Origin: Ectocarpus siliculosus | Lineage: Eukaryota > Sar > Phaeophyceae > Ectocarpales > Ectocarpaceae | Length of the DNA stretch: 64,000 bases | Direction: 5' to 3' | Assembly (NCBI GenBank): GCA_000310025.1 | Contig: FN649741.1 | Span: 461,953 to 525,952, forward strand | In this document: one piece after another, positions 16,956 to 44,335 of the stretch | Layout of the letters: each line of letters starts with the position of its first letter | How positions within the stretch are numbered: the stretch's first letter is position 1 | Position numbers and translations under genes: made by a program | The notes under the pieces: model-generated | Databases searched by the model: none | Seen by the model: the letters and a program-made list of their open reading frames with translations, nothing else | Told to the model about the DNA's origin: nothing

Positions 16956-17004
<49 letters not shown>

Positions 17005-19842: not shown

Positions 19843-20661
19843 GGGCCTGATCGAATGCTCAGTGGATGGGCCTGCACTAGCTCTCGCTCGATGTCACCTA
19901 GCCTTGTCCCGCCTGTACGCGACGCACGTGGTGCCTTGTCTGTTGTTTGTTTTGTTGACTGGTGTTTTGGTGCTCCCGGGAGGCTCCGCGGTATGATGTT
20001 TGGTCTACGTAGTAGCCTCATCTGCGGTGCCCCGACGATGGTTGCGCCGCCGCCGCTGCACAGCTCTGCAGCTGGCGATTGCCTACAATACTACAGGAGA
20101 GCCGTGAACGGAAAGGAAGCGGGCTAGATCGAGGGGATGGAAAAAATAGGATTGGCAAGATGTGGATTATATCGGTGAGTCAGTTGAACATGTGAAACCA
20201 TTGCCGCCATGACCACGTCGGAAGCAGATTGTATTGATATTTCAAATACGATGTACACACTGCAAGACTATAGCTCACATGTATTATAGTACCACCCGCA
20301 TACAGGATCATGTGACAAGTTTGCTTTGCAGTGAAATTTGCTTTGCTTTCGCTGTTATGTGTAACCGCCGTAAATATTGCCTTAGCCGTTGGCCAACATT
20401 AGTCACAGCAGTTGTAACTTTCATGTTTTATGTTCCCAGAGATGGATGCATTGATGCAAAACTACAGGCGCTGAGCTAATCCTACCGCAACGTTCCAATC
20501 GGAACATCCTGGGAATCAACCATTGTTCGTGGTAGAGATAAGTTTAGTCAGAGATGCGGGTGTGGCGAGGGGCATTTGAGTGGATAACTCGCCAAAACAC
20601 CACGATTGGCAGGCAAACACCGCGGGGTTGATACTCGACACAGCAGCAGCAGTAGGCTGGT

Positions 20662-20701
<40 letters not shown>

Positions 20702-20932
20702 ACACGATGGGACGACCGAGAATGGTGTACACGGTGTATCGCACTCGTGCATTGACTGCCCAGCAGTCTTAAGGCTTGACGTTTTTTCAGGTCGACATGG
20801 GGTGCCCTACGTCTATCTTGTATCTTGGTTCGTTACCTCTGTGGAGAGCCAGAGCGTGTGTTGGAAAAGGGCCTCCTAAACTGTGGCACCGGCTGTCGTT
20901 CGTAGATTGCGCCCTTGTGATGATAGAGATAG
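19843..20932. promoter_or_regulatory. Divergent spacer SAP30BP / SelO, with CT microsatellite
   Basis: Roughly 1.1 kb upstream of both genes. It contains a CT run at 20667-20700. The missing first exon (with the ATG) of SelO probably lies here. No other feature was recognised. Confidence 0.4.
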
Positions 20933-23900
20933 GCCGGCATATTCCTTCCCGTGGGCGTATCGTTTGACCCTCAACAGCGATCCCAACTCCTGACGTGCGG
21001 TCGGAATCACCCATCATCCACGGATTACGTTTTGTATCGTAGGCGGACACCCAGCGGGAGAAGATTCCGCTTCGGCCGTTCGCTTGTCTGGGTTGCCTTC
21101 GCGGGCTTGACGCGAGCTTTCGTGCATACCTCGGTGCCGCTGCTGCTGAGACCGCGTTCGGATCCGGGTTGTTTTGCACGGGTTTCTTCGCATTCTGGGG
21201 ATGAGAATTTCGCATCGCTCGAGGGGAGATGGCCTTGGGTGTGTGAGCGGCCCGGGAGATGCGCTGACCTCCCCGCAGAGGAGGTTTTTACCGGCTTCGA
21301 TGGGCTTTTCGACGACGACACTGACCAGGACGCCAGCGGCACATCTGAGAGCTACAGCAAGGTGGGCATTCAACATTTTTCGCGGTTCTGCTCTCAAGGG
21401 CATTGCCACACCCTGTTTACTAGCTAGGAAAAGGGCGTGTTCCGCTGTTCGCAACACCATGAAGGCCATCACGAAGTTTGTGGAGGCCTGTGCGTCAGGC
21501 ATACACACACATAAATCTCTCTCGGCGCCCGGTGCGCCTTTCGCGTTGTCGCTCTCAACGAAAACAGGTGTCACGGGAAGTTCGAAACGCCTGCTATGCC
21601 TTCGTTTCCTTGGATTCTGCCCCAGATCCGAAGGTGGTTATTCTCAGCAAGACCGCCGCTGCGCTCACGGGGATACCCCTTGAATTTGTTGGGGCAACAA
21701 GGAGAGAAAATCAGGGGGCGGAAGGCGCATTTCCGCCGTGCCAACTGAAACAGGTTGCGCTTGCCCTCACGGGGACGGTGGGACTCGAAGGTGCGCAGCC
21801 TTTCTCCTCGAGCTACGGCGGGCATCAGTTCGGCAATTGGGCTGGCCAACTTGGTGATGGCAGGGTTGCGACCCTTGGGGAGATTCTGAGCGATGGCCAA
21901 AGCGAGATCGGACGAGTCGCTGGAAAAGAGCATGTCGCTGGAAAAAACCTTGGGGGCTTGGTGGAGGTGGGGTTCATCCTGTAACGCAAATGATCTCGTG
22001 CGCTTCCCATGATTCCAAAATGTTACTCCAGCGGCCTCCACGCGAAGCAAGGATAGTCGGAGATACTGTTTGGGACACGCCGTACCGTCTGACGTAACGT
22101 GCGTGGACAGCAGTATTGTGGTCATTTTTTGTGTGGAACCCGTCTCACACATCAGGTAGGGCGTTGCCGGAGGGGGTAACCTGGTTCGCGAAATTCCGGC
22201 GGTGAGCACTCCACTGCTTCGGAGGGTTACTGGTATAGCTTCTTCACACTCTCATGTTGTTTTGAGCAAACACAACAGACGGTACCAGCCAGACTAAAAG
22301 ACGACACACCAGAAACGTTCAAGAACTTTGAAAACGTTCCGTAATGTTGATGGGTCCATTCTTCCGGTATGTGGCGCTGGTAAGCCGCTGTACATCAGGT
22401 CGAGGCTTTTCAGGTTGGCTGTCACGGTTTCGGCGCGTGAGACCTTTGGGACACTGCTGTGGCATGAATGGTCAGTTCATGGGCGCCAAAAAGAGGCACG
22501 GGGGCACGCTAAGACACTGTGATAGCCAACCTTAAAGGTCCCGATCTGATTCATCGCCGCCTACTATTGCCACCAAACGGTGTAGGATTGAAAAGACCAA
22601 TCAGCGTTGCAGAACGCGATCAAATTCCGTGGCAAGTTGTACAGGTACCGCTTTTTGGTGTTCGCCTTTTTTTCGCTCAATCGTGCTTCTCGTTGTCTTG
22701 GATTCGTTGGTTTAGGACCGTGTAGTTTTCGCAGGTGGTGGGGCACTGCGTAGGATAGCGTTATTTTTGGTCATGGTTCAGTACTGGATGGAGGTAGTAC
22801 AAATGGTGAATCGAGGGGAAAACATCAAGACGATGATAACAGTAGCGGGGTAGGGGTGGTATCTTGCCTAGCAACGTTTTTTGCCTCGGTCACACGACGC
22901 CATGATTGAATCGAACACAGGCTGTGTATTGTAGTGGCGGGACGGGTGTTATCAGAAGCGTCAGCCCCTTGCCTGATTCGTGCTGTCATTCCCGTCCATT
23001 TTTGGCTGAAGGGCGCGATGTTGAGTCGAACTGGGGATGCGCGTAGTGTTGCTAAGTTTCATTCCCTTGTCTAACTTTTTGCCGTGATGCGCGGCGTGAA
23101 TGGATTGATACAGATTCAACTCAAGGGCATTGGGCAGACACCATTTTCTAGAGGAGGCGACGGGAAAGCAGGTGAGACACACTACCAGGAACGATTGCAA
23201 CAGCTGGTTACCCCAGGATACAAGAACGGTGCTACCACACACGCTGACTCCACGGGTGCACGCGCTAGAGCTTAGTAGAAACCAAACACCGTCGTCGCTG
23301 TGCGAGGTTTCATATTGTGCTGCATTTTAAGTTCCTCTCCCTCCCACGTTTGACACCAAAATGTGGTTCCGTTTCTCCCGCTCGTTTCCTGTCACGGTGT
23401 CGGGATCCTGCAGTCCTTGGGGCATGCCTGCGCGAGTTCTTGTTTAGTGAGGTAAGCTTTCTTGAGTCTATGTAGTGTGTTTCTGGGATTAGTTTTCTGG
23501 TGCTTATGCATGCCCAAATTATGGTGTCGACTATGACCAAAAGTTTCGATCGCTCTGTTGTCGTTATTGATATTCAGGCCTTCTTGGGCCTTGGGCTCCC
23601 AGCAGCGGTAGCGGTTTCGGTCTGCTCTTCCGGAGAAAGCGCCACGATTCGAGACTCTGATCCGAAAAACGGTGGGACGTTCAAACGAGCGCGGGGCGCG
23701 GTTCTTTGCCGTACTGCACCAAGCTTTCTGCGATTTGGATCTTTCGAGTTGCCGGCAAGGAGGGGCGACGTGACACTCGTGCGAAAGCTGGCCGATTACT
23801 GCCTCCGCCACCTCAGTCCACATTTTGAATCGAGTCTACTAGCACACGCAACGGGGTCGGGGGACGAAAGGACAAGAGAATTTTTAACCTCCGGAAAGGA

Positions 23901-25863
23901 TCTGGGCATTGGGCGAAACGAGGAAGACGGGCAGGCCCAAGGAAACGGCAAGGAGAGTAATCAGGAAATGGGCGCTCGTAACGACTATGTGGAGCTTCTT
24001 GTGGCTATTGTGCAGGTATGGACGCCATCCAGCGCGGTAAACATGTGACCAAGGCCGGTGGCCAAACGCCCGTATCGTGTAGAGTGAGTGAGTAAACATA
24101 GCTGCTTCCTCCGGTGGGGGATAATAGATTGAGGAGTGTGCCCAATAGTAAGCGGCAGAAAACATTTGGTGGACGGGATTGCCCCAGTAGCGTGCACATT
24201 TGATAGTTGATCAATCGGACGTTGAGACAGCTTGCCCGACCAACAAATCTCCACGTTGGAACGATGCCACCGGTGGCATGCAGGCTACAGCTCGAATGGT
24301 GGCCGGATGGCAGGCGATGGGGTTTTGTCACGGTGTTCTCAACACGGACAACTTTACCCTGCTCGGCCTTGGACTCGACTTTGGACCTTGTAGGTAAGCA
24401 AGCGTGCCACAAAGCGGATGTGTTGCAGATAGCTGTGTTCTTTGTTCGATGTTCGTCGGCTAGTCGGTGGAAATTTTGATCAACTTGCATACGCTGTGTT
24501 CCTGCACCTTGAAGTATTCCTCGAAAGGCGGAGTGTACGTATCAATATGGTGAGTTCGTGAGAACGCTGCATTGTGGCCCCCTGTTTGATGGCGTCGTTT
24601 ACGTCGTTACACATTCTCAGTTTCATGGAGGCTTATGACCCAACTTGGTCTCCGAATGAAGGCGATTCGGCTCTGCGCTACGCTTTCCGAAATCAACCAG
24701 ATGTATCAGCGTGGAACTGCGAGCGACTCGCCGAGGCCTTCTCTCCGATTGTGGGTGAGAGCACCCAATGATACAACCGCCACGTCTGAACGTTCCTCAG
24801 GTCATTTTACTGGTTTGGCAGCACCACACGCGGCGGCACCCGTGCATACTGCGCTAGTATTGTGCCTAACGAGAGACGCGTTTGTTGATGTTCAACCTAC
24901 CACGCTGCACACACTCCTCGAACGACGGGGGTTCCTAATGTGGGAGCCGCCATAAAACGTTACCACCTGCAATACTCTGTGGCACGAATTGTTTTAAGGC
25001 ATGGTGCGCCTTTCGCTGTGGTTGTTGCCCGTGCAGGGGTTTCGGGAGTTGCTGAAGCCAACGCTGCCTTTTCACCGGCCTTTGATGCCGCCTACACCGT
25101 ACATCTTCAGAAGAAACTAGGGCTGAGTGGCATGGATTTGGGAAGTGGCTGGATTCACCCGCGAAGGAGTGGGGATGCGCCCGCTGGCGAAATGCAAGAG
25201 AAGCTTCCACCAGACGCACAGTTTGTTTTGAGTTTTTTCGACCTGATGGCAGCATGTCGGACGGATTTCACCGAAACTTGGCGAGCTTTGCTTGACGTTC
25301 CGGCCCTGTCTGTGGCACGCAAGGCGCGACGAAACTTGACCACTGAGCACTTAGAAGCTACTGGCGTCGAAGATGACATCTGCAATGATGATGAGGAGAC
25401 GCTGCGACCTCTGTCTTCTGTGTTAAACGCCGCCGGAGCCTCAAGTACAGCTCGCAAGCAGTGGGCGACCTGGATCCGCGATTACAGTTCGCGAATTGAC
25501 TCACAGGGCATTGGAAACGGCCATCCCGAGGGCGGGGAAGAGGGGAGAAAAGAAAGGCTGGCAATTATGCGTAGCAGCAACCCGGTGTTTGTACTCCGGA
25601 AAAAAAGCTTAGAACAAGCTCTCAAGGCAGCAGAAACTGGAGGTGAGCACCCTAACAAAGCAAGGCGGTGTTGGCCTCCGAACGCAGCCTCCTCATTTGC
25701 AATTCGTGCTTGTTTAGGTTTTGACAAATATTGCCGTGTTCCATGCGCAGATCTAACTTTGGTGCACCAACTTGAGGAGCGCTTGTCCAGGACCTACACG
25801 GGGGACAGAAACGAGGAAGGAGTCACACGACAACCACCAGAAGCAGCAAGAGTATCAGCATAG
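20933..25863 (+). CDS. SelO: Selenoprotein O family protein AMPylase (5' exon unresolved)
   Basis: Proposed exons: about 20933-21361, 21568-21915, 23114-23171, 23414-23451, 23578-24015, 24284-24393, 24621-24754, 25037-25642 and 25751-25863; phases agree throughout. The first frame has no ATG, so a start exon upstream is missing; its Arg-rich, hydrophobic opening may be an organelle leader. Signatures in order: [77 protein letters not shown] with [17 protein letters not shown], and a helical end with [13 protein letters not shown]. SelO is a kinase-fold enzyme that transfers AMP to proteins, mostly in mitochondria. Exons 3 and 4 are only 58 and 38 nt. The donor after exon 2 (CGA|GTCGCT) is weak. 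The C-terminus ends in PPEAARVSA with no Cys or Sec motif, unlike many family members that end in CxxU or a Cys-Ser-Ser tail. Confidence 0.9.
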
Positions 25864-27111
25864 TCGTGTGTCGTTGTCGTTGTGCGGTATCTTCTTGGTT
25901 TGCTGGAACAGCTCTCCCTAGAACTAGGTACCTGACGGGGAGTTAAAATTCAATGATTGTGTGTTTGGCGTCCCGTATAAATGCTCTACATTGTCTTTTT
26001 ACTTTTCGGTTATGTGTTCTGGACGAACCCGCGGGGGTCTGACAGGATTGAACTCTGTGTAAGTGAAGAAAAGTTTTGAGTGCCTATGAAACTTGTGTTA
26101 CCGGTTTGCGTATGGGTCCAGCGCTTTTGTATTATGAGCGCTTTCCTGCAGGCAGACTCTCGTGTGCTTCCATGCTGGCCTCTCTCGCGGCGGCAGAGGC
26201 CGCTGCACCCTGTTATCGTACATGTTTCCCCAGGTTTAGCATTTGCTCCCTTCCGAAGGCGGGTGGAGAAGGATCCCAAGGTCGAGGTAGCTGTAGTTCG
26301 CTACCGAGGGCAGGTGGTGCTCTTCGTTGATATTTGAGCAAGGAGGGAGGTACCAGAAACGAATAGGCAGGGCGGCCGCCACAAGTGGTCCGCCCGGTCA
26401 TGTAAGCAAGGAATGTGGACGGCCGTCAGTGGTCTCTCGAGTTCCCATGGTTCACGGAACGCTTTCAAGGATCGATTCTTCCTTGACTTTTGATGTGTCC
26501 GCATGGGTCCTACGCTTCCAATATACTTGCCCATGTGTCATCCACATAATTGCCCAGATTTCTCTGATGACTTGTTATTGGACAAGTTAGTACCCTCATT
26601 GGGGTATGCGTAACCACAAATGATTGAGGAATGCCCATTAGAACAGGGCGGAGGGCGGAGGTATCGGGTAGGTTGCCATGTAAAAGCAGACACGAACACA
26701 GCGTGCGTAGAAACTACCAGCTGCTGCGCGCTTCCCACGACAACAGAACCGCACGGGCGTGGTCTACGCTGCTCCATGGGTGTCTGTTTCGTTGGTGAAG
26801 GGGTGCCAACAGCTGGAACAAAGAGCAGACGATGGTCATGTCGCCACACCTGGCCAATTCGTGACAAGGCCGTAAGACGTGCCGTAGCGTATGTCGAGAC
26901 AACACCATGCGTCACATGAAGCTGATTTGACATCTTCGTGGGGCTTCGTGGCGGAAGCAAAATCGTACTGTTACCACCACTCCACGCCCCCCGCCCTACC
27001 CTCCGATAAACACCAACCTCGTCCTCCTTTCATGTGGAGCGGTTCGTTTCCAAAAGCTTGTCGACGCCGTGTTCTTTCCAACACCTTTCGCTCCAAAGCC
27101 GAACACCTATT
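25864..27111. other. Convergent spacer SelO / UBZ4 gene
   Basis: About 1.25 kb with no convincing coding sequence, RNA or repeat family that I can recognise. Confidence 0.5.
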
Positions 27112-30100
27112 CTAGGGTTCCCAGGCACTATCCAGGCATTGCTGCACGTGCGCTTGTCTCTCCCACTGCCCCTGTCGGCCTCCAAAACTAACCCCACAGA
27201 CAGGGCACTCAGTGAGGCCCTTCGATGACGACATTCTCCCCGTGGTGGCCGGTCCCCTAGCCGGCGCCGTCCCTCTTGATGCCGAGACCGTATTTGTTCC
27301 ATCTGGGTCACGTGCAGGCTGACAGGATCGGTGGAGCGATGCGGGGGTGGGCGGGGTGGGTATTCGGCATGCCATCATCGAGCAAGATCCCCAAACACCA
27401 CAGCAGTGGCAGGTTGCAACGAAGCACCGCAGAAGGAGCCCACGAGGGTAAAATCGCCTTTCATTTCCTATATCTTGGTCTAGACTTCGTTCCGCAAAAG
27501 GAAGAGACACGTGCGCTTCCTCAACCTCGGCTAAAATGTAGACCATAGCAACAGACGAGGATCTCGCTGGGTTCGAATAGATTTTAGTAATAAATATCCA
27601 TCTGGGACTTTGTCGGAGCTTCACGACACACATAACGCGCGGATGATGCAATCCTGAAGTGATGCACCAAAAAAAATGCAACGGACGGCGTATCTCATCA
27701 TCGGGCCTGCTGTGAGCAAATCCGACTGGGACACCCAACACATACTGCTGTCACTACAAAAGAAGGTTCACCAGCTCACTTTCGGCGAAAATACCCCTTG
27801 AAGTGACACCCGTGATGACCTCGGTCCTTCCGAAGGACCTGACGGCCCTTCTTGCCTGTTCGCGGACGATCCCGTTCCTTCCGTCCTTCGCACTCCTGGC
27901 CTACGCTCGGGACGTGGTGTAGTTGATTCACCGGGGTCGCTCGACCCATCGAACTGAAGCGATGATCGGTGTGTAATCCCCGACGGCCGCGAGGCGCTCG
28001 GCGTTGCGTCTCCGGCAAGACGGGTCTTCTTTGCGGAGGACGGCTGCTTCATCAGGCAGGCGTGGACGTGCTGTGGAAACGGACGGCGGGAAATTTGTGT
28101 GGGACGGAGCAAGACGGTGTTAGTTGGTACGACATTCGGCGGCCGACCAGGTCGAGAGGCTAGAGGGAACATGAATTGCAGCAACGGCTGGATAGAACAC
28201 CTTAGGTACCAGCGAGGCTTATGAGTGAACACCAACGAACGAAATAGACGCATGCTAACCCACGCGACGTGGCTACGTTGACGTCTATTCAACCTCACTC
28301 TCTTAACTAACATTTGCAACGGGTTCATGGGAGAATGCCAGATTCGCAACAAAGACTCGCGCGCCCTGCGATATATCCACAACCAAAACCGTGGTATAGC
28401 ACTTTCACAAAGGTGGCCGCGCGCTTGTGGATCACCTGCTGGCGCTGCCCCGACTTCCAGTGGTCCATGCCTCGGTTGCAAACGGGACACGTCACCTTGT
28501 CGCCAGAGTCGTTCGCCTCCAGTGCTTTTGCGGAAGGGCTTGTTGCGAGCCCGAAGCTCCCCCCAGCCGAGACGGCCTTCGGCAAGACTCTAGAAGGAGT
28601 TTGCGGCTGCGTTCGTCGCCCCCCCTCCGCCGTTGGACCCGCAGACACGCGATCGCTGTGACTCTCTTCCGCTGGTTCATAGCGCTCCGCATGCCGCCCA
28701 TGCGTGCCATTTGTTCCTCGCGATCGCCCCGCGTGGCCACGCGACGGCGCAGCTGCTGTGTACCCGCCATCAGCCGCTCCATGCGTGGACTTCGTCAGGC
28801 CTTCGACTCCCACTCTACCTTGGTGGTGATGGGGATCGAGATTTGGTTGCCTCTGCCCTGAGCCCCCCCGCCCGTCCCCTCGATCTCGACTGGCTGCCTT
28901 GCTAGGACGAATGGAGGGAGCAGCTTCAGCTTTGACGATGATATAGGGATCGTCTCGGAGTCGCCCGCTTCCACTGATCCAACCGCCCTATCAAGAAGGG
29001 TCCGTGAAGGTTACAAGCGGATTATTAACCATAGGAAGCAAATGGCAACGACGGAGGGCTGAGACAGGCTTGAACAGTATGAGAAAAGCAGAGAGCTACG
29101 ATGCAACTGAAAATATCGAGGGGACGCAACAACGTCTGGTACAACGACACACACAGCTTACCGTGGGTGCAAGGCGAGGATGGGGCACGACGCTGTACCG
29201 GAGAACGCCGACACAGTCCGTGTCGGCAGGAGATAGATACCAGACCTGCAACGCACGAAAAAATGGTGATAAAAAACATGCCGGAGTGGGTAACATGAGG
29301 CACGTGGAGGATTTCGTAGATCGGTCTTCGGCAGCCCACCAGCATTTGGCAACGTGGCATCAACGGGTGCACAAAAGCGTGACCAGGCGTCACGCCGGAT
29401 CCATAAGGATGCAAGCATGGTGGTTCGATTGATTTGCACGGGAACATGCACCAAGGGACTGCATGAACAAATGTGCCACCTGCGCCAGGCGCTGCCCCCC
29501 AATACCTATCTCACACTACCGGAAAACTCAAATACAACAGACTTCGTATAAAATAACACTATCCGGGGTACGCTCACCGCATCATAGTCCAGCAAGGCCC
29601 CGAACGCCAGCCTTCCGAGCTCGTGCGAGCTGTCGATAGACCAGCTATCCCGAAGAGTTGCTCCATGCTCCCAGACGACAGTTAGAGAGCCCTGCAGCAG
29701 GGTACAGGTATGATAAAGGGGTCCATTCGTATACAGAAGACTCAAAGGGGAAAGATGGGTAAGGCCTTGTTGAAAACGCAACCACTTCTACCCAACGTGC
29801 GTTTGGTATCAGCATAGGCATTAGATAAAACCGCCGGAAACGTCGAAACCGTCATGTTGGTGCAAGAAATAGACGACGGCGAGGAATCCGAGGAAGCGAG
29901 GAGATGGCGAGTGAGGAAACGTGAGTACGCAATTGCTGTTTACCTTGGCCTCCAGGCCATATCATGTCAGTGGCGACCATTGCAGTCGAGGCCTATTTCT
30001 GGTCCTAACAGGGAAAACCTTCCGACTGCGGCGCACCAGACACCCTCTGCATTCTAATTGTGCTCTACGATCACCGATGACATGGACCTTGAATGTTTTG

Positions 30101-33100
30101 GGGAGGTGGGGCGGAAAAAAAGGCGGGCCGTCAAGACGAAGCAAATCACAACCCTAGAGATAGAAAATCAATCGATTTCGTCACGATGTGATGTAACTCC
30201 TACCACACGGCAGACAGCACCTGCGTGGTAGTTGGGCCATATCGGGCACATGTTTATATCATCCCAGCCTTCGAGTCACTGGCGCTAGGCATAACCGCAC
30301 TGAACCAATACCTTCTGCCGCACGTCCGCTTTGCGTCCTTCACACTCTTCTAGCTGCGATGAGTTGCTCCCGGCAAGGTCCACGACACCATCGTTCGCAG
30401 CAGGCGCGACCTTCGCATTCTCGTTTTCCTTGCGCTGATTCTCAGAACGTGCTGCGAGGTCAGCACTTCGCAGCAACCCGGAAGACGCCCGTGAGGCCAA
30501 CGCTCCCCTCGATCTAGAGCCGTTCCATTGGCTGGACGTAGGTATCGCGCGCTGCAGGCCAGGAGGTGGGTCTCTCTGTGACCTGCGGTGGCCACCGGCA
30601 TCCATCGACGATACCCTCACATTCCTCTCATGGGAGCTAGATGCTCGCTTCTTCGCAACCGTCGCGCCTGGCATGGAGCGTTTCACTTCATCCGAACCCG
30701 TCGAGCTCCCGTGCCGAGGAGGTGGCTGTGGCACCCCATGTGTTGTTGCGTCCACCGGGGCGCGATCGACATGAGCCGTCCGTTTTCGATGCTCGCCAAT
30801 GGTCAGGTTTTCGTTCGCGACCGCAACCGGACGCCTAGTCTGAGGCGCCGACGTCGCGCGCTCCGACCCCACCGAGCTTGGAGCCGTCGCACTTGCAGCA
30901 CTCTCATTTGCCGGCCCATTTCTTTTGGCCGGAGTCTTGACAACCCTGGGGGAATTCCCGCTCTGCTGGCTCGCAGCATCTGCAGCACTCTCGTTTGGCG
31001 GCCCATATATTTTGGCGGGAGTCTTGACAACCCTGGGGGAATTCCCCTTTGGCGCGCTCACACTATTTTCCACCCCTCCGGAGCAGGCTTGCACTTCGAA
31101 AGTGGAGGTACGTCGTACCGTCGGCGCTGGCAAAGACAATTTTCTGCTAGACCCCTCCGAGCTAGTGCGGTTGCGGTCCTCCTGCTCATGTCGCCGAGAC
31201 CCCTCTTCGCCACTCCGGTTGGCAGGTTTGCGTTGTTGTGGAGGCTCTTGTGGCGGCTGCTTCCGGCTAATCTTGTGCCCAGATACGGACTTGAACGAGG
31301 CGATGATCGCAGGCGAAGTACTTTGCACTGGGGAAGAAGCTATCGTGGCGCCCGGTCGCCGGTTGTTGTTGGCGCTGACTTCAGATATCGTTTCGAGGGC
31401 CGTGCGTTTCGGCGGGGGCATGGTCAACTCGCGGACCCTCTCACCCTCGCAGCTACGCGCAGTCCCCGTCCTAGCACTATTTCCAGCCCCGCCCGGCTCA
31501 CGCTCTACGGAAGGTCTCATAGTCGGTGAGCCTCCTGGACGTTCGGCCTGCTGTGGGCCAGAGCTACTGGCAACCGTGTTCTTGTTTGTCGGGGCGACTG
31601 CTGTCGGTGGCGATCGTGTACCGACGTTCTTGACCTTGGCGTTGGCACGGTTGTCACCACTGTCTTGTGGCGTTGGCGTTGGCGTTGGCGGCTCGTGAAG
31701 TCTCAGCGCCCTACGAGCGGGCTGCAGCCGAGAAAACACCTGCAGGAAGCGGTCAACTCTTGACGATGGGGCAGGGCTACCTTCTTCGCCTAAGCGCATC
31801 GATCGTGCGGCGTCTACCGGCATGACAGCTCCGCCACCATCCCTCTCATCCTCACCATCCGACTCTACCAGCGTTTCGGGCGGAGGAAATGCCTTCAGCG
31901 TGAGATAGCCGTCTCCATCTCCCCAGCAGTCAACGCCGCCGTCGTCGACACTCCCGCCAGCTGGCCAGGTTCCGAACCAACCCCACTGTTCGTCGTTCGG
32001 ACGAGCACCCCACGACGCTGGTCGGCCGCGCACTCGACGGTTTTCTTTCCGCATCCTTGTGTTTCGTCCAGTTCCGCACTCACCCACCCCACAGCTTGAC
32101 CGATATGCACCTTCACCACCACCGGTGCCAACACACCAGCAATCCATGGAGCCATCGTCTGCTGATTCTCCTTCCTCATCGGGTGCCGGGAAAAGTTTCG
32201 TGCCGAGCCATCCACCGCCGTGCGCAGGCCCACGCGCAGAGGCCTCTCGCAAATACAACAGCTGCGCCTGCGCGATTTCATCAAGGGCGCGCGAGTCGCA
32301 GCCTTTGCGTGCTCTACTCGCATTCGAAGCAGCAGCAGGTGTTGGCATGGCGTCGCTGACAATCTGGTGCCCCTTTGGCCGAGCTAACCCCAAAGCTCGA
32401 CGGCGAAGTGGGTTTGGCTGCTGCGACCCATCGGGGGAAGATGACTGCGTGGAATTGGGCAAGCGATGCTGTAGAGCTGCTCTTGTGTTGGACTTCGTCT
32501 TGTCGGCAGCTTGGTTTCGGGTGTGAGAAACCCGAGCCTTCGAGGTAGCCGAGGCTACGAATGCACACATGGCACAACGCAAGAGACGGTTGAGGCGTGG
32601 CGCCACAAACGATGGGGGGATGGAGAACACTTTCGACGCTGCACATGTCGTCGACCGAGAAATAATGGGTGGTTATACTGACTCAACATCAGCCACTGCG
32701 CCGTAGACCTTTTATAGGATGTAGTGCAGGGGAGACCTCTCGGGTAAAGTGCTTGTCGTATGCATACCCTACATCGATCGCCGATAAAGCCGCATTGACG
32801 GCGGCAATGTTCGATATCGAGGTCTGCTGCAAAGCACAATCACCTCCTGGTATTTGAGTATGGTATTTGAGTATAGCATAATGAGTGGTGGGTTCAACGC
32901 ACTGCTGTAGCGCCAAGAAAAGGAAAAAAACTCTGCTGACGGGGTCACGGCTGTGGCACCTCCACTGTTGAAGAGCGAATGCCAGCGCACCTGCTCTCTC
33001 AGTATCAATAGCCCGTTCGCCCTGAAGCGTCTTGGTCTTCTTCGCAGCCTTGTCCTGCCGAACTTGCTTCTCTCCCCCGCGACCGTGTACTGCCTTACTC

Positions 33101-33573
33101 TTCGGTGTCCCTTCTCTCGACATTCTTCGAGTGTTGCCTTCACGACTTCCACTGCCGGTCACATCAGTGACGGCGCTGCTCGCTTCATTTCCCACTGTCG
33201 TGGCAGTCGCCGTATTGCGACCATCGGGATTCCCTACCCCACCGGCTGCATCTTTCCGCCCGCCAGCCGCGCTCTCACTATCGCTAGCGTCAGCCCGAGC
33301 CCTTCTTTCGAGGCAGTCATTCACGTGCAAAGCTAAAGACCGCGACGAGAAGCCTGTCTGCTGGCACACCGGACACTGCCGATTCACATCGTCCCACGCA
33401 GAACGGGACGGAGGGCCGGCGGGTCCTAGGAAGCGAGTGAGGGTGCTGGAAGGAGCTACGGCGGGAGAGTCCTTCTTGGTCTTGGTCCGCTTCTTCGTGG
33501 CTAAGGTTAAGGTTGCTGGTGGAAGGTTGGCCTCTTGGCTGGAGTTGTCGTCGATTTCCTCGGCGTCCATCAT
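27112..33573 (-). CDS. Large protein with three UBZ4/Rad18-type zinc fingers, function unknown
   Basis: Seven exons, minus strand: 32991-33573, 30312-32554, 29578-29691, 29162-29245, 28436-28987, 27780-28070 and 27112-27318. Every junction keeps phase and the total is 1,357 codons before the stop. Start at the first of two Met codons (MMDAEEIDDN). Three C-x2-C...H-x3-C fingers: CPVCQQTGF..HVNDC near residue 60; CPVCNRGM..HVHAC, split by the last-but-one intron; and CPVCGVSF..HVQQC about 13 residues from the end. Spacing fits UBZ4 ubiquitin-binding fingers of DNA-damage proteins (RAD18, SNM1A, SLX4, FAN1). Exon 2 is a 748-codon disordered region holding two Trp/Cys-rich repeats and a 29-residue tandem repeat. 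Exons 3-4 and the start of exon 5 encode a short folded-looking segment (SLTVVWEHGATLRDSW ... GVLRYSVVPHP) that I cannot assign. No nuclease, BTB, SAP or VRR-NUC domain is seen. A role in ubiquitin-dependent genome maintenance is inference. Confidence 0.82.
30930..31095 (-). repeat. Two-copy 87-bp coding tandem repeat
   Basis: Inside exon 2 of the UBZ4 gene two 87-bp units (29 codons) each encode GNSPRVVKTPAK followed by a GPxNESAA segment. The DNA core GTCTTGACAACCCTGGGGGA is identical at 30934 and 31021, so the duplication is recent or conserved. SPRVVKTP looks like a proline-directed phosphorylation cluster. Confidence 0.85.
31915..32215 (-). repeat. Two Trp/Cys-rich repeats in the UBZ4 protein
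   Basis: At about 32116-32213 the gene encodes WLGTKLFPAPDEEGESADDG then SMDCWCVG; at about 31918-31988 it encodes WFGTWPAGGSVDDGGVDCWG. The shared pattern is W-[LF]-G-T ... DDG-x-[MV]-D-C-W. I know no named motif of this form. Confidence 0.6.
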
Positions 33574-35167
33574 CTCCAGGGACCGAGCATCCGGCCGTCT
33601 TGCTGGGCAACGGATGACACACCAGATAGATGACTTTGTCTGAGGCTGTGCAGTGCGACTTGCGTTTGAACGCGCGACATTGTCCAGGGGCTGAGTGGTC
33701 GCCGACAAGCAAGTGCAACACGCAAGGCTCTATGATACCGCAGAATGCATAGCAGAGGTACTCACAGCGGTATACCGCGCAGGGGGATCAGTATCTACAG
33801 ACAGCGACGGAGAGACGCTGAAGCCTACAGCAGTTCTTTTTACAGTCCCGGAAGTAGCCAGTAAATAGCTTACTTGTACACACATTGTAGTCACATTCGA
33901 ATACATGTTTTTTTCTCTGGGAGTGCAATAAGAATAATTCTTTGTTGTGCTATCGCTGAGAAGCCAGCATACAGGAAGCTTGAACCTGCCGTCGCGGATA
34001 AGGTGTTGCACTACACCGCACTCGCTCATAAAACACAACGAATTCGCAGGGACATCTATCGGCCGTCGGCAGCAGCAGCGTGCTAGATTTACGTGCTTCT
34101 ATCTTGCACCATCAGACACCGAAAACACCAACAGCGCACGCATCAACTCCCACCTGAATACACCCCTCGTTCTTCTCCCTTCTACCCCCTCCCTCTACCC
34201 TAAACGACTGCTGACTGCTGACGGCGGGGGTGGTATAGCAGTTGATATGTGATGGTGCTGCAGCTGCAGAGTTCGAGCAACTTTTGAAAATCTCTAACCC
34301 CCCCCACGTTTCTGCCATCTGTCGGCCCCCCACTGGACCGCTTGCTCGCACACCGCCCACCACCTCAGCTGGCTTCTCCCTGTGGACACGGGCAAGGAAG
34401 ATGTTGGAGGTGGTACAAGAAGATCATGAGGTGTGCTGAAGTCTCGTGTCATCGAATGTATCTATAGCCTTTCTCATCCATTTCTATCATGATGTACGTT
34501 GGAGGTCACATACGCAGGGTATCACACCCCCTTGACCGACTTTCGAAGGTCGAGTGCTCCACAGCAGAAACAGTGGAGGTGCCGAGCAGGGCGGCGGTGA
34601 AACCCGTGCCGTCGAGAACGTTGCCGAAACGTATCGTTTGATGTATACAGCCTCCTCGTCGTGGAGTAATCGAGCTTTGAAAATAGATCCAGGGGATGGG
34701 ATATCTTGTGTCATGTCAAACACTCGGTATGTGGGTACCCGTAGGTCATCTTGTAGACATCACTACAGCAGTACATATCTGTCAAGCTCTCGCGTTGACA
34801 TTGCGAAGACATTGAAGAGTAGGTACGAGTTTATGAATTTCCAGTTTTAGCCAACATATTTGAAGATGCTGTAGTTGGTCCTCCCTTCATTTGCGGGGTG
34901 CTGATGGATGCTGATGCAGCTACTTCATGTACTTCATAGACACGCGGTGGCAAGTAGGTTGTTGTTCTGTTCGCGTTGTGCTTCATTGTTGTGTTCTAAC
35001 CCTTGCCTACGTGCGAACCTACGGGGTCGCGTGTAAAAGGACTGCATGCGCTACTCGGAGCTCACCCCCAAACCCTTGAATATCACGGCTTTATGCACCC
35101 TACCGCTCGTCATCTGGTCACCAGTTTGATCTTGCCGGCTCCGCTCGGTTGGATGTACTGGTTTCAG
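33574..35167. promoter_or_regulatory. Divergent spacer UBZ4 gene / ADAT3 with MITE
   Basis: About 1.6 kb. It contains copy 2 of MITE family A and must hold the promoters of both genes and the unresolved first exon(s) of ADAT3. No other coding segment was recognised. Confidence 0.4.
34504..34717. mobile_element. MITE family A, copy 2 (diverged)
   Basis: It shares with the 15449-15662 copy the left arm GACCGACTTTCGAAG and the right arm GAGTAATCGAGCTTTGAAAA followed by ATCCAGGG..GGGATATCTTGTG. Same 214-bp length. The ends and TA flanks are decayed, and the middle is different. Confidence 0.65.
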
Positions 35168-37342
35168 CTATCAAGCCTCGCCAGGCTAGCCAGGTCGTCA
35201 AGGACTTATCAGAGCTTCTTCCTCTTGAGCGGGCCAAGGTTAGTGAAGGTGTCCCCCCTGTTACCTACCATACAGCGGAATAGTCTTCGGTACGCATCGA
35301 TGGCGAAGTGCCTCCCTCACGTGTGTCCACGGAGGTTAGCGAAGTTCAACGGCAACAGTGTTACTCTCCCGCTAAGACTGTTTGCGTTACGTGCGGCTGA
35401 CCGGACTAGGATTCTCCCACAAACCAGCAGTTCGGCCGAAGCAGCCGGAGCTTCAATATTTTTCTATCACGACGTTCGATGCTACAGTAACTCGGACGGT
35501 TCGGACGGTGTTGTCCCCTCGTGCGTCGAAGGCGCTGTTGATGTATGGCGACGCTACAGCAGTATAGCGTGGACTGTGTGTACTTTCTAGGCTGCTTTGG
35601 CAATTGCCATGGTTCTCGGTCGTTGCCTTGGGTTCGTTTTTGAAGAAACGACATCTCGCTCAACTATTTAAGAAAATATTTTCTAGTGAGCATCGATGTT
35701 CTCATTGCCCCCTTCGGCTTTGAAACCCTTGTTGCGACTTCCCCATCGCGCAGCTCAATCACCTCAAGCGTATACGGTCATCTCAACACCCGGAAACCGG
35801 GAGATTGCTGCAAGTGCTCCTGTCGCCCCCCGACATGTACCACGCCCTCGACGAGGCCAAGCGCAAGGAAATCGTGGAGCGGTATGGTCTTGAGCCCACC
35901 GTGCACGCTGTTCCCAAGCTTGAGCCTCGAACACGGGCACAGTTCCTGAGTGGGGGCTCTGCGTGGCCGATGATATTTCACCACAGGTGATGTCTTACTC
36001 TTACTCCTTTTCGCTTCTGAACCCGACCGTTGGCGTCGCGTGGTCTATTGCCACAGGCTTCATCTGGTTTTGTATGTGGCCGGCTACAGGGCTGGCTTGA
36101 GGCATGCGCACTACCAAAGGCCATCGTGCTCAAGCCAGCTCTAGGTTTATCACAGCAGTCTCAGCAGAGGCGATCGCGGCCGGAGCAACTCTTCTATTTA
36201 GGTTGCATCTTGGGATGTCCAAGAAGGTAGGACTCCATTCCCCAACATGTACCGTTGTTCCTGCTTGTTGTACGCACCCCCTCCCCCCGTATGTTTGCTA
36301 CCCAGCACATCTGAGGAAGCCCGGCGGGCCGCCAGAGTCATCCCTGAACAAGACGCTCTCGACGCCATTGGCTTCATGAGAGACGCCCTCGTCGATGCGG
36401 AGACGGGGAGGCAGCAAAACGGGGGCCGACCAACGGTCGGAGCGGTGCTGGTCGACCCCTTGGGGGGATGCGGGGGTCGAAGGGGGAGGGTCGTTGCAAC
36501 GGCCTCAAGAGAGAGGCAGAAGGTTCGCGACGAGGAGCCGGCGTCCATGAGAGATCACCCCCTGCATCACGCCGTCATGCTGTGCGTGCAAGGGGTGGGG
36601 AGAGCGCTAGCGGCCGGATCGAGACAAGAGAAAGTTGCACGAAAGCAAGAGGAAGATTCAGCAGGGGGCAAGCTGGGAAAGGAGCGGGAGGGGAAGGGGT
36701 CGGAGAGTTTATGCAGCGATGCAGACCCTCCTGGCGGGGTAGTGGAGGTGCTGTCTCCCGAGCAGTATTTGTGTACAGGCTTCGACCTCTACGTCACGCG
36801 GGAACCTTGCCTGATGTGAGTACACAAGCCGAGCGTGGGATGTGTGGCTGTGAAGCACTTCCTGGACAACCGCGGTTGTTGACAGACCATGAGTGCAGCA
36901 CGTTTTCACCGATATCATGCGAGCGAAGGTACGGCTGACACGCTCCGAGAGCAGCTTGGTGCGGAATTTTGCGATGACGCCGCGGATACCAGTAGGAAAC
37001 ACGAAACGCAGCTCACTTGACCGTGATTTTCTGGAGCATGTTGTCTTGCTGTTGTACCAGTATATCGTCACAGTTTGCGCTTGCATATTCACCCGCGCCG
37101 ACTTCGCACTGCTTCGCTCACCCTCTCTTCACAGGTGCGCTATGGCGCTGGTACATAGCAGGGTTCGACGGGTGATCTACGGTGTTCGGGATACGGAGCG
37201 AGGGTGTTTGGGCTCGGTGACGATGCTGCACACTCTCACGTCGCTCAATCATAACTACAGAGTATTCGAGGGTGTGTGTGCGGATGAGTGTCGGCAGTCC
37301 TTGTCGGACAGAGAGTCGAAGCATGCAGCGGTTTTGCCGTAA
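35168..37342 (+). CDS. TAD3: tRNA adenosine-34 deaminase subunit ADAT3/TAD3 (5' end unresolved)
   Basis: Exons seen: about 35168-35238, 35754-35986, 36306-36815 and 37135-37342, with consistent phases. Exon order gives AIKPRQASQVVKDLSELLPL, then LNHLKRIRSS (the family's HLKR motif), PKLEPRTRAQFLSGGSAWP, the deaminase active-site region HPLHHAVM, and the second zinc motif EPCLM|CAMALVHSRVRRVIYG, split by an intron, ending with LGSVTMLHTLTSLNHNYRVF. ADAT3 pairs with ADAT2 to convert A34 to inosine in the tRNA anticodon. As in other ADAT3 proteins the proton-shuttle Glu of HAE is replaced (HAV here), so this is the structural, tRNA-binding partner; the catalytic ADAT2 is not in the window. A charged Gly/Lys/Glu insert of about 50 residues separates the two zinc motifs. 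A short first exon with the ATG is missing. Confidence 0.9.
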
Positions 37343-38659
37343 ATATGAACACATTGCCCTTCACGTCAGTGAATCCTCACAGAAATCAATCATTGAGCCG
37401 TTCCGTGCAAGTCACACTCTGAGGTCCTACACAGGCAGTACAGGTGTGTAGCCTACACTGCTCTCCTGTTGCCTACAAGTGTCTCGCCGTCGACGAATCC
37501 TGCAGAGGCGGCAACAAAGGGCGCAGATACGGCAAACGCTTGCCTAAGTCGAAACACACGACAACCCTAACCATGCACCCAAGAATGGCTGCACGAGCAG
37601 TGGTGTTTCCGCAGTGGTTCTCATGGAAAGCAACTCTCGTTGAACCGAAGGCATTTTTATTGACGACAGAATGATACAGCATGCTAACGGGGTCGTTTCT
37701 ATCCGCAGTGACACCACCAGGAGGAACCTCAACTTTTAGTACAGTACAGTACTCATCTCGATACACTCGGATAAACCGTGGTACAACTGAAAAGTGCTCA
37801 CTCAAGCTGTGAGGGTCATCACTCTGTTTTGTATTTTCTAACTTCAATCTCAATCATGCAATATTTACAGCCTGTGGAGGTTACCTAGGTGTGCTAAGAC
37901 AACATCACAGCAGTATCCCTTTGGACGAATTCCGAACCTGAAAACTGATTGGTGCCGAAAGAAAGCGCGTGCAGCATGCTCACAGCTGCTAGCGCCTTGG
38001 ACATGCGGCCTTCGAAAACAGCAAGGCAGGTAAAAGACATGGTAATATTGGTGTCACGGAGATTGGCAGATTTCCAGGACATGTAAACGGGCTAGTCACC
38101 CACGCTTAGGTGAGTAGCCCGCGTACATGTTCTCGAAACATCAGTCTCCGTACACAAAACAACCATGTCTCACTATTGCGGTGCTATTTACGTAGACTGT
38201 GTCCCCAAGGAGCTAGGAACCCTCAGCAAGCTGCAGTCGCCTGTTCTCCGCAACAACCATCTTACAGGGTTCAATTGTAGGAACGCGTCAAAACGGTTCG
38301 CTAACGCTTGGCTGTTCTACGACATGTTCTCCACCTCTAGACTAAATAGTCTATGGTTGCTGCCAACGATTTTCGCACATTCTACCCTCGCAAACGACCA
38401 CCAAACACCTGAAGCAACACGCCAGATTCGAAAACCACACATGGTCTGGGGAAAAGGAAAAAAAAAACGATTGGCAAAGCCAACAGTCCCTTGGGCACAG
38501 CCCCAGCCCCAACCGCGCTCGGAAACGCTTCAAGCTTCGTGTACTGCATGTGGGGTGATGGGCATACGTCATCCCGACAGCACAGACATGCATACGCTTG
38601 CCCTCCCGCCCACTCTTCTTACAGACGTTGCACTCACGCCTGCCCTAGCAACAATTTTT
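37343..38659. other. Convergent spacer ADAT3 / SIVA-like gene, mostly a foldback element
   Basis: No conserved protein. A long frame at 37473-37853 (minus) has no recognisable domain. The right part is a large palindrome, listed separately. Confidence 0.5.
37860..38345. mobile_element. Large imperfect foldback (palindromic) element
   Basis: Two arms of about 240 nt meet near 38104. The inner arms match strongly: ACATGTAAACGGGCTAGTCACC against the reverse complement of GGTGAGTAGCCCGCGTACATGT. Matching continues outward through GACATGGTAATATTGGTGTCACGG / GACATGGTTGTTTTGTGTACGG, TGCAGCATGCTC / TGCAGCTTGCTG and CTAGCGCCTTGG / CTAGCTCCTTGG, and fades near 37860 and 38345. It could be a foldback transposon or MITE, or a source of hairpin RNA. 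Confidence 0.7.
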
Positions 38660-39078
38660 CTAGCAAGATTCGAGTCTCTCATCCTGATAGCATGGCGGGC
38701 AGAAGTAGCACTCAAACTGCGAGTTGTAATCTGCCGCCAAGCACAGACTGCAGTGAGGAACTTCGCAAGCGGAGCACCTCTGCCAGCATGCTTGGCACGC
38801 AGCACGATCACAAAACGAACACAAAATGTCCCCGCCCGCCGTCCCTAGCGCGCCTCTGCAAGCGTAGCAGGCAGGCCCACCCTCTTCCCGAGGTTCGGCT
38901 CCTACACCGACGTCAACATCCATTGCACCGTCTCCTCTGCTTGTAGTTCCGGCACACTCCCCATCGCAGAGTTCTGCATCGGGGTTTCGACCAGAACACT
39001 CTGATGGAGGCGTGCAAGGCAGTCCGGGTACCGCAAACATGGCGTCGATTTTGAGCTGGACCAGCGTTCGCCCAGCGC
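38660..39078 (-). CDS. SIVA-like cysteine-rich protein (5' exon uncertain)
   Basis: The open exon ends at 38660. Its C-terminal 60 residues carry a dense Cys pattern: CYACRGALG, ILCSFCDRAACQACW, RCSACEVPHCSLC, then ECYFCPPC. Order and spacing match the double zinc-binding C-terminus of the animal SIVA1 family, including the region where SIVA1 has CxxCxRALCxxC. Upstream, TLVQLKIDAM resembles the PLQLKV segment near the SIVA N-terminus, followed by an acidic Gly-rich linker. An ATG lies at 39040, but similarity begins before it, so I place the exon start at the acceptor near 39078 and expect a short 5' exon. SIVA1 binds receptors and E3-ligase partners in animals; the role in an alga is unknown. 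Confidence 0.68.
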
Positions 39079-40305
39079 CTGTGCCGGATGATAGGAGGAA
39101 GCACCGTGGTGAAATTGGTGTCGTGGTTAGCGTGTCGGAGGAGAAAACGGGCGTCGAAAGTAAGATAGCGTTACTCCTGTGTGGAACGAGAGAGCGGTGT
39201 TCGATACGTCAAATGGTATGGGAAAACGATCCCTCGAACGGCACAAGCCAAACTCGACACACGACACAGGTCAAAGGATTTCGAGGTAGAGAGGGATAGA
39301 CACATCGACTGCAGGAGGTCGGTGCCGCATCAAGACGCCAAATACTTTTAAAGCTTTTTCAGCATTTTGGGTTGGATTTTAGCAGCAGATACCGGAAAGG
39401 CAAAGCGTTTTTGAGACCGCACCGGGACGCAATTCGGCACGGTGTTGAGCACTACATATACAGTATACTATAATACTTGTCACCCAGACGACGTAAGATT
39501 TTCGCCCCAAGAATCCTTGAGAACGAGGAGCTTGTCAGCCCAAGCTTGGCAAGTCAGAGCGGTGATGACGGCCGATGCGATGCAGCTGTTCCTTGTATCG
39601 TAGCATCAGAATCACGGCTGAGACGGTATGTATTCAGGAACATGCATGTATGCATACAATGAGATAAAAACAACGCTGCAGCAGTACTCGAAGTTGGACG
39701 AGCGTGAGCGAGAGACGCGAGGAGCGGATCCTGATCATGAGGGCTCGTATGCATAATAAGATGGCCGTCGCAGGCCGGTGCACGGAGTGCTTGCCCTCCT
39801 CGCAGCAGCTTACCAGAAAATGTGGGCAGACAACAACGTTCTTACGGGCATCGACGGAAAAATTTACACGTACAAAAGTTGTCCAGTGGGGAATCGCTCG
39901 CCCCCCAGTGCATTCTCCAAGCGCTTCACCCGTGCAGCCAAGTTGCGGTACTCTGGGATGCCATTTCCAACACTCAACACCATGCCACAACCGCAGGTGC
40001 TCAGCTAAACAAACAAACCCTCCCAGTGTCCGACGGCGGCGTTCCTCTTGGGAGCACAAACCAAGACTCGTGGGAGGTTGACACCTTCTCAATCCGGTAT
40101 CGACGCTCTCCGAAATAAAATGACAAACAAGGGCGCTAATTTTCAAGCTAGTTGTATCGGGGTTTGGTGTATGTATGTGTGTATGGTACATGCGTCCAGA
40201 GGGAGCGAATTGACAAATGAAGAGCATTTGTTTACGATTTTTGAACGCCGCTGTGGTCCGAACCACTCTGAGCGTTGCCGCCAAAAAAATGGTCAGGGCT
40301 TTTAC
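39079..40305. other. Stretch with one candidate exon, otherwise unassigned
   Basis: A protein-like segment on the minus strand at 39864-40007 reads VGNGIPEYRNLAARVKRLEN and ends RFPTGQLLYV-stop, behind a plausible TTTAG acceptor. It may be the last exon of the gene starting at 40765, but the phase does not match the best donor there. The rest shows nothing convincing; an AT-rich TATACAGTATACTATAATACTT run lies at 39458-39479. Confidence 0.35.
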
Positions 40306-40765
40306 CTGCGCCCCCTGTTGCCGCGGTAGACACAGCCTCCTCGTCCAGGCACTCGCGTTCACCCTTCTCCAAAGACGGTCTCGTTCCTGCTCTCGTGTCC
40401 CTGCGGCCTTCTCTTGCGCCCCAGATGCCGCCCGACCAACAGCCCCGCTCAACATCCGCACCTACAGCGGCAATGGCACTACTTGAAGAGGAGCTATCGG
40501 CCTCCTCTCTGCGATGCCGTTCTTGCAGCGCTTCTCTCGTCCACCACTGCTTTGTCTCGAAATTCTCGCTCGTGTTGACATCCAGGTCTTCATGGGCTGG
40601 GGGTGATGGTGGTCTTGTTGTTTCGGTTGTTGTTGTTGCCGCGATCCTTGCTCGCTTTTTCGCAAGTACCCCGCCGTCCACCTCGACCTCGAAAGGGAGA
40701 CGGGAAACGAGCGGCTTCTCGAAAACAAAAAAGGCTCCTCGCTTCCTTGTGGTGCTCATGGCCAT
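40306..40765 (-). CDS. Unrecognised low-complexity protein, first exon
   Basis: The exon starts at ATG 40765 (MAMSTTRKRGAFFVFEKP) and ends at a good CAG|GTAAAA donor. The first 25 residues look folded (GAFFVFEKPLVSRLPFEVEV), followed by KKRAR, a Thr/Pro stretch, an FETKQWWTREALQERHRREE helix, a Ser run and charged Gly/Arg sequence. I do not recognise the family. Composition and codon use match the neighbouring real exons, and it sits divergent to thioredoxin with a 344-bp spacer. Downstream exons are unresolved; 39864-40007 is a candidate. Confidence 0.5.
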
Positions 40766-41109
40766 CACGCCCCGTCGTTACTGCGTACGGCGCATGTATC
40801 GTATGGTGTCGAGTGCCGATGTGAGTTGTTTTGCGTGGCGGAGAGACGAGATGTGCAAGGGGTGCAACCGGTGCTTGCTTGCTCCAGGGAGCACGCAGAC
40901 AATATATTTGAGAGGAGGGGGGGATGTGAGAGGGCATGTATCCCTTTCGGCGGGATGGGGTAGGCCGGTGTGTGCGTGAACACCAGCTGGGTCGTGACAC
41001 AGCAGCAGCACAGCCAGCAGCAGTCACGCAGACATAGGGTAGCTCGGGAGGGTAGCTCTCATTCTAGCGCTCCCTCGGCGATCAGCGTTTGCTCTCCGAA
41101 AGAAGGGGA
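40766..41109. promoter_or_regulatory. Divergent promoter region, unknown gene / thioredoxin
   Basis: A 344-bp spacer between opposed ATGs. It contains an ACAATATATTTGAGAGG AT-rich stretch near 40898-40915 and several CAGCAG words. Assignment as promoter is by position. Confidence 0.35.
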
Positions 41110-42953: not shown

Positions 42954-44335
42954 TTGGGGATGAGAAATTGCTTCTTTTGAGTTGATCGGGCTCCTTGGTA
43001 GGGCAGGTGAAGCCATCGCAAGCGCGCGTGTTGTGTATTTCGCGGGCAGTAGAGCGGGATAGAGCGTAGGGGAGGTGCGTCAGGCCCTTGAGAGTTCGAG
43101 CGGGGGGGGCGTTCGAACCTGGGGCGAGTGCAGCCTCTTCTATCGGCACACTTACTCACCAGCAGATTTTTTTTTTTTTTGCGGGGGGGAGTTATGGCGT
43201 CCAGTTGCTATGGTGGTTGCTGGCCACCTGCCTCTTTCATAAAGTATGTGTTATCGTTTATGTTTTTGTTTTTGATCGATTACCTTGTGTTTATCGCGGT
43301 GGTCCGACGACGGTTGTTGGATTAAAGCAGATGGTTGGTGAGAATAATTACCCCGCTTTTTATTTTTGGTGCCAAGGCCACGAACAAGGGTTTTACCGAA
43401 TCTTTCTGACTCATGCATGGAGTCTGGGACGGTTTTGCCGCAACCTACTGTTCTGTAGTAGGACGTCGGGATCATTCTCGAAGAAACGTACCATTCGCGT
43501 GTGGAATTTTCACGACGCACACCCACCCATGATAGCGCAGGTTTGGTTGACTCCATGACGCATCCCATGACCCTGTACTCGTGTCGAGGCAACGATCGAT
43601 GTAGTTCAATTGAAGTTAACCTCCCTGTGGTCTTGTTCCCGCATGTACCAGCTGATAGTCTGTGTATGACGCAGAGATGCAGGTGCCCCCTCAGCACCTG
43701 TTAGCACCTGCTGGATTGGTGTTGGGTGTCATGCTCATGCTTTGCTCGACGGGCAGCACGTGCTTCACGATCATGATGACTCCGTCAGGCGGCTCAGAGG
43801 AGGTGGGTATAAACTGGGTTGCACTCACCGCAGCGTGTCGCCGTCTCAAGGGCTCCTCCTCGATTTGCTTCATTAACGTGCTAGAGGACCACGTTGCTCG
43901 AGAGAGACGCTTTCTGTATCTTGTTCGGCTGTCCATAAAAAAAACTGGCAATGCTTTGCAGTGCTAGCCGCAGCAAGTGTCTGCTTGTCGGAACAAGAGT
44001 TGGTGTCTAGGTGCTGTGCTTATCGCCGTAGCCTCTTGTCAGCCTAGCGTCAAGGTGAAGGTTGTCACCCCTGTTGGGGAAGCTTGATTGAAAGGGAACA
44101 AATGAACAGGTTACACGAACACCTATATGTTGCAACTGTTTGGCCAAACATACATGCGGCAAGTGGTTCTGTCCAGGTTACCTGTAACTTAGTGTGAAGA
44201 GGTACCTGGTACAGAAGGAGCGAGGTGGTGGCCTGCTCGAAGAAAATGCCGACCTGCTGACAATGATAACGAATGGTAGCGCTGCGATGACAACGGCCGC
44301 AGCCACGACCCCGGAAGCACTCTTCAAGGGTTTAC

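Follow-up and report, generated by a model that had tools for sequence, protein, structure and literature searches.

The closest described systems to the locus reported here are FAAP20, SLX4, FAN1, RAD18 and WRNIP1. FAAP20 (20 kDa) binds FANCA and has a single UBZ, and in WRNIP1 the residues Pro21 and Val22 contact Ile44 of ubiquitin while Asp37 contacts Arg42 (PMC4370504). In FAAP20, no ubiquitin binding was detectable for D164A, A168Y and W180A, and L171A gave 529 vs 9.26 µM (PMC4267625). SLX4, a long and disordered scaffold protein, carries both UBZ fingers and SUMO-interacting motifs, and SAP together with the conserved C-terminal (SLX1-binding) domain makes up the minimal SLX4 set in fungi and animals (PMC8599992). 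In FAN1, a non-canonical PIP is located just upstream of the UBZ (PMC5648898).

The locus is on the minus strand of the window (the whole 64,000-nucleotide stretch of Ectocarpus siliculosus DNA that was analysed) and contains three CCHC motifs, CPVC-x12-HVNDCL, CPVC-x14-HVHACL and CPVC-x15-HVQQCL, spanning 33375 to 27133. The C-x2-C and H-x3-C ligands of the UBZ4 type are present in all three, in finger 2 only after splicing. The coding region is real, as are the CCHC fingers, one of which is a good UBZ candidate. Our best explanation, put forward tentatively, is a single spliced gene whose product is an adaptor that is disordered over most of its length, has three CCHC fingers of the UBZ type and lacks an enzyme domain. 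Such an adaptor would presumably read ubiquitin in genome maintenance, with a putative role in repair. The features are as follows.

32991-33573, minus strand: exon 1 of the dynamic-programming model, picked in all five settings, with a donor score of 3.77 and an upstream in-frame stop; it carries a basic stretch, the PIP-like motif and finger 1
33427-33441, minus strand: PIP-like LTRFL (residues 45-49), a motif match
33310-33375, minus strand: finger 1, CPVC-x12-HVNDCL, from motif and profile
30312-32554, minus strand: exon 2, a long disordered linker, supported by a 795-codon stop-free stretch, its limits set by the dynamic-programming model; the donor is weak (1.07)
30375-30386, minus strand: SIM-like VVDL (residues 918-921) near the end of exon 2, a motif match
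28436-28987, minus strand: exon 3 of the dynamic-programming model, which would end earlier if the other in-frame donor, after 28496, were used; positions 28489-28436 encode the first half of finger 2
28053-28489, minus strand, with an intron at 28435-28071: finger 2, CPVC-x14-HVHACL
27780-28070, minus strand: exon 4, with the second half of finger 2; acceptor 2.18, donor 3.82, retained in four of the five settings
27112-27318, minus strand: exon 5 including the stop codon, from the dynamic-programming model and the re-trained models
27133-27207, minus strand: finger 3, CPVC-x15-HVQQCL, a FAAP20-like UBZ by Pfam, Foldseek and profile
27115-27132, minus strand: C-terminal tail DSAWEP, read from the sequence and set beside the FAAP20 D177/W180 tail

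The first Met, at 33573, is preceded by an in-frame stop at a distance of 53 codons with no in-frame ATG in between, and the terminal stop codon ends at 27112, just after finger 3. The same end points had been given in the initial annotation, and the three-finger gene region that it described is partly confirmed; the seven exons and 1,357 residues given there could not be recovered, the dynamic-programming model comprising five exons that encode 1,291 residues. The 795-codon stop-free stretch at exon 2 exceeds the longest in every one of 100 simulated windows (339 codons at most). For the first exon model the training set of the codon scores included part of exon 3, which made it circular, and the scores were therefore re-trained on exons 1 and 2 only, both of which were assumed to be coding when the set was chosen; the splice-site weights were generic. 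With this training, the five settings gave 4, 5, 5, 5 and 8 exons, and exons 3, 4 and 5 had weakly positive codon scores. In part of exon 3 another frame scored about equally or better, its own frame having no clear preference. Within the linker, GNSPRVVKTPAK is present twice (30924-31046, minus strand), 29 residues apart at model residues 698 and 727.

The single transcript of the initial annotation was not confirmed by the exon scores. Instead, there could be two adjacent genes, one carrying finger 1 and extending from 33573 to the stop at 30285, the other carrying fingers 2 and 3 and starting with a separate first exon within the gap, and we regard this as a serious possibility though short of probable. 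The exon 2 frame reaches the stop at 30285 only nine codons beyond the weak donor that would be used for the join. The best two-gene arrangement scored 19.7 and the direct one-gene join 16.8, and four of the six candidates shown exceeded the one-gene score; however, the two-gene score carries zero cost for a second promoter and start, is the best of 50 candidates and was compared with the direct join, one-gene versions with extra exons lying outside the comparison. Three of the top four candidate separate first exons are 5-17 nt long. Moreover, exon 3 has no Met ahead of finger 2, so an exon further upstream is required for fingers 2 and 3. One gene is modestly favoured over two, with exon 2 perhaps joined to exon 3. 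If there are two genes, the locus would hold a pair of ordinary UBZ-family proteins.

The finger motifs were compared with chance expectation in simulated sequences. In six frames of the 64-kb window, the pattern C..C-x(10,16)-H[VLIM]..C[LIVM] was matched twice, whereas 100 first-order Markov sequences of 64 kb averaged 0.05 matches, and both matches in the window (fingers 1 and 3) are in the same region on the same strand. The CP.C form of the motif was found twice in the window and in none of the 100 Markov sequences. For a finger split by an intron, one example whose donor and acceptor each score 1 or more was found in the window and none in 200 simulated windows. This argument is carried by the quality of the splice sites, because any GT combined with any AG gave two split fingers in the window against a random mean of 0.48.

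A profile was then made from four UBZ sequences with PDB-confirmed letters (FAAP20, RAD18, WRNIP1 and SLX4 UBZ-2), and fingers 3, 1 and 2 scored 17.4, 13.6 and 4.9 bits, respectively. Shuffles that preserved the Cys and His residues reached these scores in 0/500, 0/500 and 14/500 cases. The sequence first taken for SLX4 UBZ-1 matched no SLX4 chain by itself, and when it was part of a longer query the alignment to 9qed was confined to UBZ-2. A long C-to-H spacing was also considered as a mark of crosslink-repair fingers and was dropped, the human UBZ letters used in that test not all being PDB-confirmed.

Finger 3 is well supported as UBZ-like by its sequence and predicted fold. Its match to UBZ_FAAP20 in Pfam (E=6.8e-5, 23.0 bits) is just below the cut-off of 25, and the curated Pfam cut-off was reached by none of the three fingers. 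Against PDB sequences it gave 13 hits, with the C2H2 protein Aart first (E=0.001) and FAAP20 second and third (E=0.021 and 0.027). The single-sequence AlphaFold2 model of finger 3 has a pLDDT of 74, and in Foldseek the UBZ domains took ranks 1-20 of 46, with FAAP20 at ranks 1-4, at weak E-values of 0.07 upwards. For finger 1, it is the profile score that moderately supports a UBZ; the AlphaFold2 model was all helix, a single-sequence PDB search returned nothing above threshold (best INSM1 at E=0.099, WRNIP1 at 0.73), and NCBIfam gave MAT1 only (E=0.044), far under the cut-off. Finger 2 is the weakest candidate of the three, with no strong match among PDB sequences, where RNF4 was best (E=0.11), followed by IAP proteins.

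The UBZ4 identity that all three fingers had been given is well supported for finger 3, moderately for finger 1 and weakly for finger 2 when profile, Pfam and fold are considered. As for their placement near the N-terminus, in the middle and at the very C-terminus, exon 1 contains finger 1 and finger 3 is at the C-terminal end, but finger 2 falls at residues 1109-1132 of 1291. The fingers described as spaced are thus unevenly distributed along the chain, with two of the three C-terminal in the model.

Another possibility is that the fingers fold on zinc and serve as protein- or nucleic-acid-binding knuckles (C2H2-like, with a BIR-like finger 2) that do not bind ubiquitin, which we consider unlikely. 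It would account for the Pfam matches that stay below threshold, which for finger 1 are zf-C2H2_ZN142 (E=0.0079) and Di19 (E=0.0095) and for finger 2 BIR, its best match (E=0.0025; 18.8 bits, cut-off 22.9), and for the partial absence of the residues with which FAAP20 and WRNIP1 contact ubiquitin. In a search with the three-finger profile, C2H2 and TRIM proteins were also the top matches, with Aart, TRIM34, a consensus zinc finger and TRIM5 ranking ahead of FAAP20 (0.0022) and RAD18 (0.011). Against this, all three fingers end in H-x3-C, the His being followed by Val and the last Cys by Leu, and the structural neighbours of the finger 3 model were led by UBZ domains. A BIR identity for finger 2 was rejected because the N-terminal half of a BIR is missing upstream and the ligand spacing differs from that of a BIR; it is kept as a caution.

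The residues that contact ubiquitin point in both directions. The Pro-Val of CPVC, which we mapped to WRNIP1 Pro21-Val22, is kept in all three fingers, while the equivalent of WRNIP1 Asp37 is absent in all three (Asn, His and Gln). Finger 3 has Gln, Gln and Leu where FAAP20 has D164, A168 and L171, and in its tail the Trp is four residues past the conserved Leu, vs nine in FAAP20. The contact residues are only partly kept, and ubiquitin binding by the fingers is plausible.

Finger 2 is created by splicing, with its halves at 28489-28436 and 28070-28053 joined as CPVCNRGMDHWKSGQRQQ and HVHACL, at donor CAG|GTGATC and acceptor TTTCCACAG. Exon 3 has two in-frame donors 60 nt apart (28436-28496, minus strand), scoring 3.20 after 28496 and 3.05 after 28436, and use of the upstream one would drop the first half of finger 2. 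In the models trained on exons 1 and 2, finger 2 was lost in all five settings because the donor after 28496 was chosen. We prefer the donor after 28436 because the scores are alike and only this donor completes a CCHC finger. These two donors also allow a more speculative and rather improbable proposal, in which a nuclease-free, single multi-UBZ scaffold outside animals has a FAAP20-like last finger and a finger 2 that is switched by alternative splicing. If this is true, the number of ubiquitin-reading fingers would be switched at the RNA level.

The domain scans covered the minus strand at 14501-43592 and the plus strand at 17001-26992 and 33601-43592. In the three minus frames of 24500-33600 at E<=10, UBZ_FAAP20 was the sole Pfam family listed, and nuclease, ligase, BTB, SAP, SLX4 (for which Pfam presumably includes a model), RING and AAA families were not found, with the caveat that HMMER filters and short exons may hide weak domains. 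Because UBZ_FAAP20 alone was listed, no nuclease or ligase domain is seen, as the initial annotation had stated. The linker scored as disordered in all 32 windows (simple charge-hydropathy index <=0.05). Canonical PIP, APIM and RIR motifs had no matches in the model, and the raw counts of other short motifs, which have no control, were 2 KEN, 7 R..L, 21 S/T-P and 8 S/T-Q. VVDL, together with YIIVK in exon 3, could be SUMO-interacting motifs.

A scaffold is a reasonable reading of this layout, and it fits the long low-hydrophobicity linkers and the lack of any enzyme domain among the families listed, with all three fingers presumed to sit on one continuous chain. The interpretation first proposed is partly supported. 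In such a scaffold, each finger would fold on zinc and bind one ubiquitin weakly, and several fingers on a flexible chain could provide avidity for poly-ubiquitinated or multi-ubiquitinated chromatin proteins. The chain could then tether partners in DNA-damage tolerance or crosslink repair. PCNA and FANCD2 had been suggested as targets, and the sole hint in this direction is the PIP-like LTRFL, with its Phe 19 residues ahead of the first Cys of finger 1; together with finger 1, it could perhaps favour ubiquitinated PCNA.

Other features were found in the neighbourhood of the locus. Matches to SelO (protein adenylyltransferase) in two frames at 24281-25632 on the plus strand indicate a spliced gene running towards the finger gene, and as it is located past the terminal stop, it limits how far the finger gene could extend. 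On the minus strand, a Siva family match at 38690-38872 is Cys-rich and just above the cut-off (26.7 bits against 26.2), and two consecutive sub-threshold matches to HCNGP at 18408-19353 (profile positions 1-49, then 43-91) are probably two exons of one gene. On the plus strand, there is a thioredoxin domain at 42717-42938 (48.7 bits) and a sub-threshold match to MafB19-deam at 37133-37297 (23.6 bits, cut-off 27), perhaps an exon of a tRNA-type deaminase.

A divergent SLX4 orthologue, with its BTB, SAP and C-terminal SLX1-binding domains lost, unrecognisable or in unjoined exons, would share the disordered scaffold, the SIM-like VVDL and a finger 1 C-to-H spacing (12) equal to that of human SLX4 UBZ-2, but it is very unlikely, given that the minus frames of 24500-33600 matched no SLX4 family at E<=10, that the chain ends at finger 3 with little room left by the plus-strand SelO gene (matches to about 25632), and that the UBZs of SLX4 are tandem and N-terminal while two of the three here are C-terminal.

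No literature on UBZ4 in stramenopiles, or on DNA repair and Fanconi together in Ectocarpus, was found in a search mostly of papers open without subscription, and none of the matches listed concerned a ubiquitin-binding zinc finger protein of this kind in algae. In IMG/VR, 12 stretches matched a pattern for relatives of the full model, and none of the 12 was confirmed by tblastn.

Returning to the preferred reading of one adaptor with three fingers, the closest likeness of a single finger is to FAAP20, in which CPxC-x15-H-x3-CL is also at the extreme C-terminus and followed by a short Trp tail, and which is the best Pfam and Foldseek match of finger 3. In contrast to the small FAAP20, whose N-terminus binds FANCA, the modelled chain here has 1,291 residues, and in place of the D-A-L helix motif and final Trp of FAAP20, finger 3 has Q-Q-L and a Trp that is not the last residue. 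RAD18 and WRNIP1 share CPVC and H-x3-CL with the locus, and finger 1 has profile support for this type; the C-to-H spacing is 12, 14 and 15 here vs 11 in their UBZ4, the Asp of H-L-D is absent, and no RING or AAA was found in the minus frames scanned.

The start of the chain resembles the N-terminus of FAN1, with a PIP-like motif ahead of the first finger. However, the distance from Phe to the first Cys is 19 residues here vs 10 in FAN1 (F34 to C44), and the mutated I30 and F34 are four apart in FAN1 while the Leu and Phe here are three apart. The nuclease that follows the UBZ in FAN1 and SNM1A has no counterpart among the families found in the minus frames of 24500-33600. With SLX4, the locus shares a long scaffold, more than one UBZ4-type finger and a SIM-like motif, while BTB, SAP and CCD, and with them the minimal set of SAP and SLX1-binding domain, were not found in those frames (Pfam, E<=10), and fingers 2 and 3 are near the C-terminus.

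Should all three fingers belong to a single chain, the arrangement would be one not known from FAAP20, RAD18, WRNIP1, SLX4 or FAN1, the UBZ proteins compared. It would also place a FAAP20-like finger, described in vertebrates in the papers cited, in another eukaryotic lineage, and the way in which that lineage recognises ubiquitin marks on damaged chromatin would become testable. By analogy, the working mode would be closest to that of an SLX4-kind ubiquitin-reading scaffold, with a FAAP20-like last finger and a FAN1-like start in which a PIP is followed by a UBZ.
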